From the NCBI RefSeq assembly GCF_006716485.1, contig NZ_VFPD01000001.1, forward strand, positions 3,206,008 to 3,270,007: 64,000 bases of DNA, in the 5' to 3' direction. The notes under the pieces are model-generated. The model did not search any database, was not told the DNA's origin, and was given only the letters and a program-made list of their open reading frames with translations. Position 1 is the first letter of the stretch; each line of letters starts with the position of its first letter. The position numbers were made by a program, and so were the translations under genes. This document shows positions 31,094-34,914 of this stretch, one piece after another. Origin of the DNA: Chryseobacterium aquifrigidense (GTDB lineage Bacteria > Bacteroidota > Bacteroidia > Flavobacteriales > Weeksellaceae).

Positions 31094-31137
31094 GTCATAT
31101 TTTTTTGCTACCTTGTATCAATCAAATCAGCAAATCT

Positions 31138-32610
31138 ATGAACCCAACTATGATCCAGTTTTTCCACTGGTATTCTGAAGGAGACTCAACATTGTGGAAA
31201 GAAGCCGAAAAACAGGCAAAATATCTTGCAAAACTTGGAATTACTTCCGTATGGCTTCCACCAGCCTACAAAGGGACAAACGGCGGTTACTCGATAGGAT
31301 ATGACGCTTATGATCTCTATGATCTGGGAGAATTTGATCAAAAAGGAACAATCCCTACCAAATACGGCACTAAAAACGATTATACAAAAGCCATTAAAGC
31401 CTTAAAGAAACAAAATATACAAGTTATTGTAGATATTGTTCTTGGACATAAAGCCGGCGGTGATGAGCTTGAAAAATTCAAAGTGGTAAAAGTGGATGAG
31501 GAAAACAGAGAAAAAGTAATTTCCGATGTTATTGAAATAGAGTCTTATACCAAATTTACTTTTCCCGGAAGAGGAAAAAAGTATTCTGATTTTGAATGGA
31601 ACTTCACCTGCTTCAGTGGTGTGGATTATGCAGAAGGAATGGATTCTCATATCTTTAAAATTCAGTCAGAATACGGTAATGACTGGGAAGAAATGATTGA
31701 TGATGAAAAAGGAAATTATGATTACCTGATGTATAATGACATTGAGCACCGGAATCCTTTTGTACGGGAAGAGCTCAATACCTGGGCAAAATGGTATTTT
31801 GATCAGACAGATTTTGATGGGGTAAGACTGGATGCTTTAAAACATATTTCTTTTGATTTTTATAAAGAATGGCTCACACTGCTCCGTTCTAATTCCGGAA
31901 AGGATATTTTCGCCGTTGGAGAATACTGGGCTCCCGGATATCTTCATCTTCTCCAAAAATATATTGAAGTAACAGAAGGCTGCATGAGTCTTTTTGACAG
32001 TTCGTTACAGAATAATTTTCATACAGCTTCCAGAGAGGGAGGCTCTTATGATCTCAGACGAATTTTCGATGAAACGCTTACTCAGGCAGATCCTATGCAT
32101 TCCGTAAGTTTGGTAGCCAATCATGACACACAGCCATTACAAGATCTTGAAGCTCCTGTAGAGCCATGGTTCAAGCCTATTGCCTATGCACTTATTTTAT
32201 TGAGGAAAGATGGCTACCCATGTATATTTTATCCTGATCTCTATGGAGCTCATTATGTGGATAAAGACAGAGAAGGCAATGACCAGGAAATATTTATGCC
32301 TAAAGTAGATGGCATTGAAGAGCTGTTAAAAGCAAGAAAAGATCATGCATACGGTGATCAGCATGATTATTTTGAGGATGCCAACTGTCTTGGATGGGTG
32401 CGTACAGGAGATGATGATCATACCGGATGTGCTGTAGTTCTGAGCAATAAAGATTCTTACAGCAAGCCTATGGAAGTAGGAATACTGTATGCAGGAAAAA
32501 AATTTAAAGATATCTTGAAAAGGTTTAAAGACAAAGTGATTATTGATGAAAATGGCTGGGGAAATTTCCCTGTCCCGGCGGGAAATGTAAGTGTCTGGAT
32601 TCCTGAATAA
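31138..32610 (+). CDS. Cytoplasmic alpha-amylase (GH13)
   Basis: The 490-residue enzyme hydrolyses alpha-1,4-glucans. It lacks a signal peptide when started at the ATG at 31138 (MNPTMIQFFHWYSEGDSTLW). GH13 landmarks are present: FHWY, VWLPPAYKG, DIVLGHKAGGDE, the nucleophile Asp231 in GVRLDALKH, acid/base Glu262 in AVGEYW, and the transition-state Asp330 in NHDTQ. The set resembles the liquefying AmyS/cytoplasmic AmyA group (GH13_5). The next gene along is on the - strand beyond a hairpin, so it is probably transcribed alone. Confidence 0.94.
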   Translation: MNPTMIQFFHWYSEGDSTLWKEAEKQAKYLAKLGITSVWLPPAYKGTNGGYSIGYDAYDLYDLGEFDQKGTIPTKYGTKNDYTKAIKALKKQNIQVIVDIVLGHKAGGDELEKFKVVKVDEENREKVISDVIEIESYTKFTFPGRGKKYSDFEWNFTCFSGVDYAEGMDSHIFKIQSEYGNDWEEMIDDEKGNYDYLMYNDIEHRNPFVREELNTWAKWYFDQTDFDGVRLDALKHISFDFYKEWLTLLRSNSGKDIFAVGEYWAPGYLHLLQKYIEVTEGCMSLFDSSLQNNFHTASREGGSYDLRRIFDETLTQADPMHSVSLVANHDTQPLQDLEAPVEPWFKPIAYALILLRKDGYPCIFYPDLYGAHYVDKDREGNDQEIFMPKVDGIEELLKARKDHAYGDQHDYFEDANCLGWVRTGDDDHTGCAVVLSNKDSYSKPMEVGILYAGKKFKDILKRFKDKVIIDENGWGNFPVPAGNVSVWIPE

Positions 32611-32611
32611 G

Positions 32612-32650
32612 AGCCTTGTCAAGGTTTAAAACCTTGACAAAGCTTTCTTT
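32612..32650. terminator. Terminator after alpha-amylase
   Basis: TTGTCAAGGTTT-A-AAACCTTGACAA (32616-32640) is a 12-bp perfect stem, followed by GCTTTCTTTC. It is not strongly U-rich, but its position just past the stop and its convergence with the - peptide gene suggest it serves both. Confidence 0.75.
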
Positions 32651-32660
32651 CATTGTAAAA

Positions 32661-32828
32661 TTAGCAATAAATATATCGGCAATTCCAAATATCTGTAGCC
32701 CATTCGCAGCATTGTCCGTCTTCGTTGGAAGTACAGCATACCTTACCCCAATTTAGATCTCCCGCTTTTAGGGTCTTCAGTTCATCACGTTTAAGTTTTT
32801 TTACTTTAAAATCTTTGTTTGTTTTCAT
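32661..32828 (-). CDS. Cys-rich secreted peptide with a double-Gly-like leader (candidate RiPP/bacteriocin precursor)
   Basis: This 55-codon gene is too short for most ORF listings. It starts at ATG 32826-32828 and stops at TAA 32661-32663. The leader (residues 1-23) is Lys-rich and ends in KKLKRDELKTLKAG, matching the motif seen at leader/core junctions of Flavobacteriia bacteriocin-like precursors, with AG in place of GG. The core (24-55) is acidic to neutral with six Cys in a C31-C32, C40-C41, C50, C55 pattern and three Trp, so it looks disulfide- or ring-modified. No export ABC with a C39 peptidase or lanthionine synthase is in the window. Homology to a named family is not shown. Confidence 0.75.
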   Translation of the reverse strand: MKTNKDFKVKKLKRDELKTLKAGDLNWGKVCCTSNEDGQCCEWATDIWNCRYIYC

Positions 32829-32951
32829 AATTATTTTTTTATGGTTTAGTTATTAAATATACATTAAAAAACAGAATTATGGATGAAAATTCAACACTAA
32901 CTACCTGATTTAGTATACATAGTAAAATCTGAGAATAAATATTAAAGGCAG

Positions 32952-33072: not shown

Positions 33073-34413
33073 TTACATCTTTTTGATTTCCAGGATTTCT
33101 GGTCTTTCAGAGGTCTCTGATATTTTTCCTGTGCGGGCAAATTCAGCCCAGAGCGCTCTCAGCTTTTTACCATTCTCTTGAATACGGTCCCAGGGAATAT
33201 TTTTCAGCAGTTCGGAAGATTTCCAGGCAGATTCATTCCCAAAGATCAAAGGAAGATCAATACAATGAGGGGCACCAATAGGATTGTCTTTCAATTTTGA
33301 ATGAATTCTGAAGAGATAAACATTTCCACCTGCTGCAGCCAGATTCTGAGCAAACTGTCTTGCCGGATTTCCGTAGATCAATGCTGTCGTTTTTTCAACA
33401 GTTTTATCCATGAGTCTTAAGCCAAATCCTTTTCCGAAATATTTATTTAAAGCCTCCGAAGTTTTAAGATAAAATGCCGTTTCATCATTATTTAAACCAA
33501 TCAGAACATCAAATTTCTGAGCGTTTTTTTTCCACATTTCCGTCGCATCTTCTTCTTTACCCAAAGGAAAGAACCCATATTGTATACCAAAAGGCATCGC
33601 TGCTTTCAGTACGTATTTTATGACAGAAGGTACAAGTGTTTTGTAGTCCGCCATCATTTTTAAAACATCAGTTTCATCTTTTAATACTTCTGTTTTTTTC
33701 AGAAATTCAGCTGACATTTTCTGTCTTTTATGACGCAGTCCCAAAGGTGCACTCTGGATAATCAGACGCTGAAACAAACCTTCCACCCCCTTCGATATCA
33801 TCAAATGGGCAATGGCATCACCTCCCGATGACTGCCCGAGAAGGGTAATATTATTTTCATTGCCTCCAAGATCTGCAATATTGTTTTTTATCCACTTTAA
33901 CGCTTCAATGATATCCAGTAACCCAAGATTGGCAGGTCTTTTTTCATCTCCACCTAAAAAACCGAACAATCCCAGACGATAGGAAACGGTAACAACAATA
34001 ATATGCTGTTCTTTTACCCATTGCGCAGGATCAGCAGTGGCAAGATCTCCACAGCCTATTTCATGAGAGCCACCATGAATCCAGACTACAACCGGGAGTT
34101 TTTCATTTTCAGATATCCTTTCCGGACGGGTTATGGAAAGGTATTGGGTAGATTCATCCGGTTCAAAACTTTCTACAGGAGTTGCCCCGATCATTCTTTC
34201 TACAAGGGGACTTAAAGCCTGCGGACACACCGGAATTTTTTCCGGAGAAACAATCATTGAGGATAAGGAAGCTTCTGCAGCAACAGGTTTTTTAAATCTT
34301 TCAGAACGGGCATAGCGGATGCTTCTGGCTCTGATAATTCCATTTTCTTTTAATCCTACAATTCTTCCGAACCGGGTTTCGAAAATTGTGGTTTCCTGCT
34401 GATTGGGTGTCAT
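33073..34413 (-). CDS. Type-B carboxylesterase family protein
   Basis: The 446-residue protein has the type-B carboxylesterase landmarks: VWIHGGSHEIG (oxyanion hole, about 111-121), the elbow LLGQSSGGDA with nucleophile Ser195, and an acid/His pair further on (HCIDLPLIFG near residue 388). No signal peptide was seen, so it is cytoplasmic as written. It is about 100 residues shorter than typical cholinesterase-like members. The ORF is continuous and its start is well placed. It is followed on the same strand by the Cys-rich peptide gene, more than 200 bp downstream. Confidence 0.85.
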   Translation of the reverse strand: MTPNQQETTIFETRFGRIVGLKENGIIRARSIRYARSERFKKPVAAEASLSSMIVSPEKIPVCPQALSPLVERMIGATPVESFEPDESTQYLSITRPERISENEKLPVVVWIHGGSHEIGCGDLATADPAQWVKEQHIIVVTVSYRLGLFGFLGGDEKRPANLGLLDIIEALKWIKNNIADLGGNENNITLLGQSSGGDAIAHLMISKGVEGLFQRLIIQSAPLGLRHKRQKMSAEFLKKTEVLKDETDVLKMMADYKTLVPSVIKYVLKAAMPFGIQYGFFPLGKEEDATEMWKKNAQKFDVLIGLNNDETAFYLKTSEALNKYFGKGFGLRLMDKTVEKTTALIYGNPARQFAQNLAAAGGNVYLFRIHSKLKDNPIGAPHCIDLPLIFGNESAWKSSELLKNIPWDRIQENGKKLRALWAEFARTGKISETSERPEILEIKKM

Positions 34414-34455: not shown

Positions 34456-34914
34456 ACACAAATAAGAACACAAATATTCACAAATCATTATTGTGTTATT
34501 CGTGAAAAAAACTAGTGTTATTCGTGTTGAAAAATCTAAACACAAATTTCACAAATACGAACACAAATATTCACAAATCATTATTGTGTTATTAGTGAAA
34601 AAAATTAGTGTTATTCGTGTTGAAAAATCTAAACACAAATTTCACAAATAGCAACACAAATATTCACAAATCATCATAGTGTTATTCGTGAAAAAAATTA
34701 GTGTTATTCGTGTTGAAAAAAAATCTAAACACAAATTTCACAAATACGAACACAAATATTCACAAATCATTATTGTGTTATCAGTGAAAAAAATTAGTAT
34801 TATTCGTGTTGAAAAAAAATCTAAACACAAATTTCACAAATACGAACACAAATATTCACAAATCATCATAGTGTTATCAGTGAAAAAAATTAGTGCCATT
34901 AGTGTTGAAAATTT
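34456..34914. repeat. Tandem array of about five 84-96 bp units
   Basis: Units begin near 34456, 34541, 34631, 34727 and 34823. Each unit after the first opens AAACACAAATTTCACAAAT, continues with ACACAAATATTCACAAATCA and then GTGTTATTCGTGAAAAAAA, and closes TGTTGAAAAATCT. Units differ by a few substitutions (TTATTG versus TCATAG; TTCG versus TCAG) and by an A-run length. The left and right halves are imperfect reverse complements, so each unit could fold. The array fills the space between two - genes and holds no credible gene; the frame at 34679-34999 is read-through of the repeat. Confidence 0.93.

Follow-up and report, generated by a model that had tools for sequence, protein, structure and literature searches.

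A 64,000-nucleotide stretch of the Chryseobacterium aquifrigidense genome (hereafter, the window) contains an isolated gene, under selection, for a 55-residue Cys-rich peptide with a double-glycine-type leader and a CCEW motif in its core. We consider it likely that a small, disulfide-rich peptide is secreted after processing of this CCEW precursor, as a stand-alone cargo served in trans by a shared machine and most likely with a bacteriocin-like role; in this scheme, the processing, export, disulfides, and activity are all predicted steps.

The gene and its orthologs

The ORF extends from 32828 to 32661 on the minus strand and encodes a 23-aa leader of the double-glycine type followed by a 32-aa core; its translation is MKTNKDFKVKKLKRDELKTLKAGDLNWGKVCCTSNEDGQCCEWATDIWNCRYIYC. 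The leader ends with LKRDELKTLKAG, the core begins with Asp24, and the 55-mer contains Cys at positions 31, 32, 40, 41, 50, and 55 and Trp at positions 27, 43, and 48 (Table 1). A preliminary description of this DNA had placed a 55-residue Cys-rich gene at 32661-32828, with a Lys-rich leader, a 32-residue core starting at Asp24, six Cys including two CC pairs, and three Trp. All these features are correct in the sequence, and the gene itself is backed by the orthologs, the constancy of the six Cys, dN/dS, and synteny; the coordinates stand as well, supplemented by the strand, which had been left out and is minus, the plus-strand reading of 32661..32828 being ruled out by stops that interrupt the frame.

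Table 1 Features at and around the CCEW peptide gene (window coordinates)
Feature	Position	Strand	Remarks
Peptide gene, all 55 codons including stop	32661..32828	-	start ATG 32826-32828; 88 conserved orthologs
Leader, residues 1-23, double-glycine type	32760..32828	-	L12, E16, L17, L20, A22-G23; predicted C39 cut after Gly23
Core, residues 24-55	32664..32759	-	scaffold C31, C32, C40, W43, C50 plus extra Cys pair C41/C55
Alpha-amylase-like gene, convergent neighbor	31105..32610	+	fixed syntenic marker, no functional link
Carboxylesterase-like gene, upstream, on the strand of the peptide gene	33073..34413	-	usual syntenic marker; absent here in a few relatives
Perfect inverted repeat TTGTCAAGGTTTAAAACCTTGACAA between peptide and amylase genes	32616..32640		probable shared terminator
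TATATTTAAT box upstream of the start	32856..32865	-	conserved in orthologs (upstream alignment); possible promoter element, function inferred

Orthologs were detected at E<1e-10 in 86 of the 173 Chryseobacterium genomes, and two more match only at about 1e-4. The ortholog set consists of 88 copies, all differing in DNA, with one copy per genome save for tandem pairs in two genomes (loci L107 and L135), where the second copies have diverged. All 88 contain exactly six Cys, the CCEW motif, and a C-terminal Cys, and M1, R14, L17, C31, C32, C40, C41, E42, W43, C50, and C55 are invariant, whereas core residues other than Cys and CCEW vary between species. The P2-P1 residues of the leader are AG in 44 orthologs, GG in 38, GA in 4, and GE in 2. 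Across 785 closely related ortholog pairs, dN/dS is about 0.12.

In 83 of the 83 loci examined, the gene resides in the same neighborhood, beside the same amylase gene. The conserved order is thioredoxin-like, GNAT, DinB, and amylase (forward), then peptide, esterase, and AraC (reverse), then ADH (forward), apart from a few local losses. A profile of the peptide family, run against 320 genomes of the bacterial family, found no further close relative beyond Chryseobacterium, and the weaker matches among these genomes are paralogs that share the leader. The preliminary description had proposed a search for leader and core across Weeksellaceae; homologous leaders are present in relatives, and homologs of the core are confined to Chryseobacterium.

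Flanked by the convergent amylase gene and, upstream, by the esterase gene in the same orientation as itself, the peptide gene stands alone. With amylase, esterase, AraC, and ADH as neighbors, no modification gene, ATP-grasp ligase, or immunity gene adjoins it, in agreement with the original observation that no dedicated maturation or export gene is nearby; the candidate machinery is encoded on another contig (see below). The inverted repeat between the peptide and amylase genes may terminate both transcripts. The Bacteroidetes promoter consensus TTG-N17-23-TAnnTTTG is absent at the peptide locus, where only the conserved TATATTTAAT box is found. A 96-bp tandem repeat (4.8 copies, 93% match) occupies positions 34457-34911 of the window, between the esterase and AraC genes.

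A search of Pfam with the 55-aa peptide yielded a match to Ntox5 at a non-significant E of 0.13, under the cut-off; there was no match in PHROGs, and a profile search of solved structures returned insignificant matches only. AlphaFold2 modeling on 32 orthologs gave a mean pLDDT of 61 and a pTM of 0.28, with a possible hairpin 30-34/40-44, in a model that is too weak to use.

A large family with a common leader

The consensus of double-glycine C39/PCAT leaders is L-12, E-8, L-7, L/I/V-4, G/A-2, G-1. The leader of the CCEW peptide conforms to it with L12, E16, L17, L20, A22, and G23, which are conserved in the 88 orthologs. The architecture of the NCBIfam family NF047798 (leader_Chryseo), a short ORF with a G/A-G leader end followed by a Cys-rich core, is present as well; residues 10-23 match this model with 16.3 bits (E 0.0085), below the curated cut-off of 23.5, and the model recognizes 25 of 32 orthologs when matches up to E 1 are counted. 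In the same genome, NF047798 finds 58 places, about 35-36 of them over the cut-off, and leader matches in 160 of the 173 Chryseobacterium genomes clearly dispose of the possibility that relatives lack homologous leaders. The earlier remark was that related Flavobacteriia leaders are known; NCBI already labels this leader type 'bacteriocin-like' (NF047798).

Altogether, about 50 short peptides of this genome have the leader in common and differ in their cores. The core of the CCEW peptide had been regarded as an unfamiliar pattern, and it does fall below the curated cut-offs; yet it is no lone oddity, being one of these paralogs and part of a scaffold subfamily. The Cys count is even in 45 of the 47 distinct leader-bearing short ORFs of this genome, usually 4 or 6 (binomial p about 1e-11); the two exceptions are a truncated ORF and a five-Cys peptide. 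The five-Cys type (CMYYCNG..VCATCS.DFKCP; L033, with relatives L212 and L213) is conserved across species and breaks the even-Cys rule; it may dimerize or retain a free thiol.

Core scaffold and predicted disulfides

Comparison with the paralogs of the same genome shows that the CCEW core and sibling peptides have the spacing CC-x7-C-x2-W-x6-C in common. Searched as a DNA pattern, this scaffold occurs in 125 of the 173 genomes, although some of the listed matches are recurrent out-of-frame ones; there are 5 matches in this genome versus 0 for a reversed control pattern, which produced only about a dozen matches in total. All 102 distinct in-frame scaffold peptides from the fetched loci contain an even number of Cys. 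Eleven have the four scaffold Cys only. In 81, the CCEW type, there is one additional pair (C41 and C55 in the CCEW peptide); in nine, the additional pair occupies two positions other than these, and in one it is of a third kind. Since most of the 81 are orthologs from a single locus, the independent scaffold types number four. Because the extra Cys come as exactly one pair, disulfide bonding is predicted, and Cys41 would pair with Cys55. The six Cys of the CCEW peptide are accordingly predicted to form three disulfides, among which Cys41–Cys55 would be the variable one.

Candidate export and oxidation machinery

A PF03412 search of the genome found four C39 domains. One of these belongs to a full-length peptidase-containing ABC transporter (PCAT), so that a C39-bearing ABC exporter is present in the same genome as the peptide; its operon, on a different contig from the CCEW peptide gene, also encodes an HlyD-type adaptor and a VKOR-thioredoxin protein of 504 aa. 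The Pfam domains of the operon are VKOR and Thioredoxin_4 in one protein, Peptidase_C39 in the PCAT, and HlyD. The VKOR-thioredoxin protein has just six Cys, none of which varies among 20 relatives, and Cys16/His90/Asp107 of the PCAT C39 domain are invariant in 19 relatives.

In 18 of 20 sampled relatives, leader-family peptide genes are located inside or close to the VKOR-PCAT operon, mostly between VKOR and PCAT. No leader peptide is found within the operon of C. aquifrigidense itself; hence all cargo is remote here, and the link between peptide and machine is through the family rather than adjacency. The VKOR protein is present in 162 and the leader family in 160 of the 173 genomes, and ten genomes lack both (Fisher p 6e-13, uncorrected for relatedness, a value that overstates the independent events, which are few given that the joint absences fall in about three clades of the rpoB tree). 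The VKOR-PCAT-HlyD operon is probably the dedicated machinery of the CCEW peptide.

Other candidates were rejected. For an NHLP-type export locus as the exporter, the adaptor gene is present in only 10 of the 173 genomes; for a lanthipeptide locus as the modifier, orthologs of its LanB with at least 80% identity exist in only four genomes, including this one. The other full PCAT loci are too rare for a gene found in 86 genomes and are therefore unsuitable as its exporters.

The remaining C39 loci are on contig C2. A second peptide-export cluster (C2:70001-90000; L160) encodes a C39 ABC transporter, HlyD, cyclic-nucleotide-binding proteins, and a precursor with a long leader ending MVAGGKTVPIGSCQFLSCFG; the adaptor of this cluster occurs in only 10 of the 173 genomes. 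A class I lanthipeptide-like locus (C2:506001-526000; L161) encodes LanC-like and LanB proteins and a C39 ABC transporter; its LanB has close orthologs in only a few genomes. The fourth C39 protein, at C2:378k, has no ABC domains. In several relatives (e.g., G122, G101, G070, G006, and G144), LanB-like genes, many split in two by one stop, lie at a distance of roughly 3-15 kb from the VKOR-PCAT operon, as if this neighborhood were a hot spot of peptide biosynthesis.

Proposed route and role of the peptide

Under the explanation that we favor, the leader would be recognized by the C39 peptidase domain of the PCAT and cleaved after Ala22-Gly23, and the 32-residue core would be exported through the PCAT with the HlyD-type adaptor. 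In the periplasm, the VKOR-thioredoxin protein encoded with the PCAT would oxidize the six Cys to three disulfides, two among the scaffold residues C31, C32, C40, and C50, and the third, optional one between C41 and C55. The CCEW peptide would thus be a stand-alone cargo in trans, with one machine serving about 50 leader-sharing peptides. The preliminary description, in which a leader-bearing, processed, and exported Cys-rich peptide relied on machinery encoded elsewhere, fits well with the leader conservation, the family, and the operon; expression, like processing and export, is a prediction.

The most likely role would be that of a bacteriocin-like extracellular peptide directed against other cells, with no linked immunity gene, as in bacteroidetocins. 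This antagonist role is favored because of the bacteroidetocin precedent (PMC6671954). Strong purifying selection on a vertically inherited gene at a fixed site and the lack of a linked immunity gene are less typical of a bacteriocin, and the peptide may instead have a signaling or another conserved extracellular role. A broader reading, which we regard as tentative and rather doubtful, is a genus-wide dispersed arsenal, in which one central VKOR-PCAT-HlyD machine would process and oxidize, in trans, some 10-50 scattered one-gene cargos with modular scaffolds that change by single disulfides, gained or lost, and the CCEW peptide would be a deeply conserved core member with a conserved extracellular role other than kin killing.

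The same route could instead deliver a secreted signaling peptide (pheromone) that the producer or its kin would sense. A single copy per genome (with the two tandem pairs as the only exceptions), vertical inheritance at one locus, the dN/dS of 0.12, and the lack of an immunity gene beside the peptide gene would all be compatible with a signal. We nevertheless consider this unlikely: beyond the general AraC-type neighbor, no receptor, kinase, or regulator is evidently linked to the gene, a pheromone needs neither three disulfides nor some 50 paralogs exported with it in each genome, and the core outside Cys and CCEW still varies among species.

Less probable still, and in our estimation quite improbable, is a RiPP in which the core Cys are enzymatically modified, with LanB/LanC lanthionines or radical SAM cross-links in place of disulfides. 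Such modification is suggested by weak matches of TIGR04149 to 18 of 32 orthologs, by the LanB/LanC locus of this genome, and by the split LanB genes that several relatives carry close to the VKOR operon. However, the radical SAM maturase of TIGR04149 systems (GG_samocin, TIGR04148) is absent from the genome, the resident LanB has close orthologs in few genomes only, neither a modification gene nor a class I lanthipeptide LanB/LanC pair with a precursor adjoins the CCEW gene, and the even-Cys rule fits Cys-Cys pairing and not Ser/Thr-Cys thioethers. A cytosolic, never exported Cys-rich metal-binding micro-protein with a coincidental likeness to leaders would suit the small size, the six Cys, and the low-confidence AlphaFold model, but is highly implausible given the fit to the conserved GG consensus (L-12, E-8, L-7, L-4, A/G-2, G-1), the roughly 50 paralogs with a common leader but not a common core, and the absence of CxxC metal-site spacing.

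Seen as a secreted, disulfide-rich cargo, the CCEW peptide is no longer a solitary curiosity but part of a system open to testing: many very small disulfide-rich peptides, probably one machine for both export and oxidation, and a predicted Cys41-Cys55 bond. Given the machinery prediction, a single deletion could show whether dozens of peptides depend on this machine for export. If active, the peptide set would supply stable mini-peptides that are genetically encoded, from a genus that occurs in soil, on plants, and in clinics.

Comparison with known systems

A limited literature search, which is no proof of novelty, found nothing on the CCEW peptide family, the scaffold with interchangeable Cys pairs, or the VKOR-PCAT-HlyD link. 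Several known systems resemble the CCEW peptide in part. Bacteroidetocins have a GG leader and a C39 ABC transporter encoded alongside, depend on a thiol oxidoreductase for full activity, and have no immunity gene (PMC6671954); bacteroidetocins A and B contain four Cys (PMC6671954, PMC8546649). These class IIf bacteriocins and the CCEW peptide are alike in the Bacteroidetes host, GG leader, and Cys and, with the candidate operon of the CCEW peptide, in the C39 transporter and thiol oxidoreductase, a likeness of system and host; killing of Bacteroidetes through BamA is a bacteroidetocin trait. The bacteroidetocin genes adjoin their machinery and a five-TM protein, whereas the CCEW cargo is remote and the known genes of the operon encode VKOR-Trx, PCAT, and HlyD; a single locus of the bacteroidetocin type (TM protein, thiol oxidoreductase, and C39 ABC transporter) is not present around the CCEW gene.

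The precursors of TIGR04149 (GG-Bacteroidales rSAM RiPPs) resemble the CCEW peptide in the leader and the GG cleavage motif. Chryseoviridin-type graspetides are likewise derived from GG-leader precursors in Chryseobacterium (PMC8939145), but have an ester- or amide-forming core, in contrast to the Cys-rich core of the CCEW peptide, which has no adjoining ATP-grasp ligase.

The peptides of NF047798 (leader_Chryseo) and NF047792 (CCPGW) are similar to the CCEW peptide in leader type, size, double-glycine end, Cys-rich core, and genus. The CCEW core is under the cut-off of both models, and we found no curated model that covers it; NF047792 (cut-off 80 bits) does not match the CCEW peptide and gives weak matches in 9 of 32 orthologs, whereas a sibling CCPGW peptide in the same genome scores 100 bits. 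Judged by sequence, the CCEW subfamily is an additional branch of the bacteriocin-like GG-peptides that lies, by score, outside NF047798 and NF047792.
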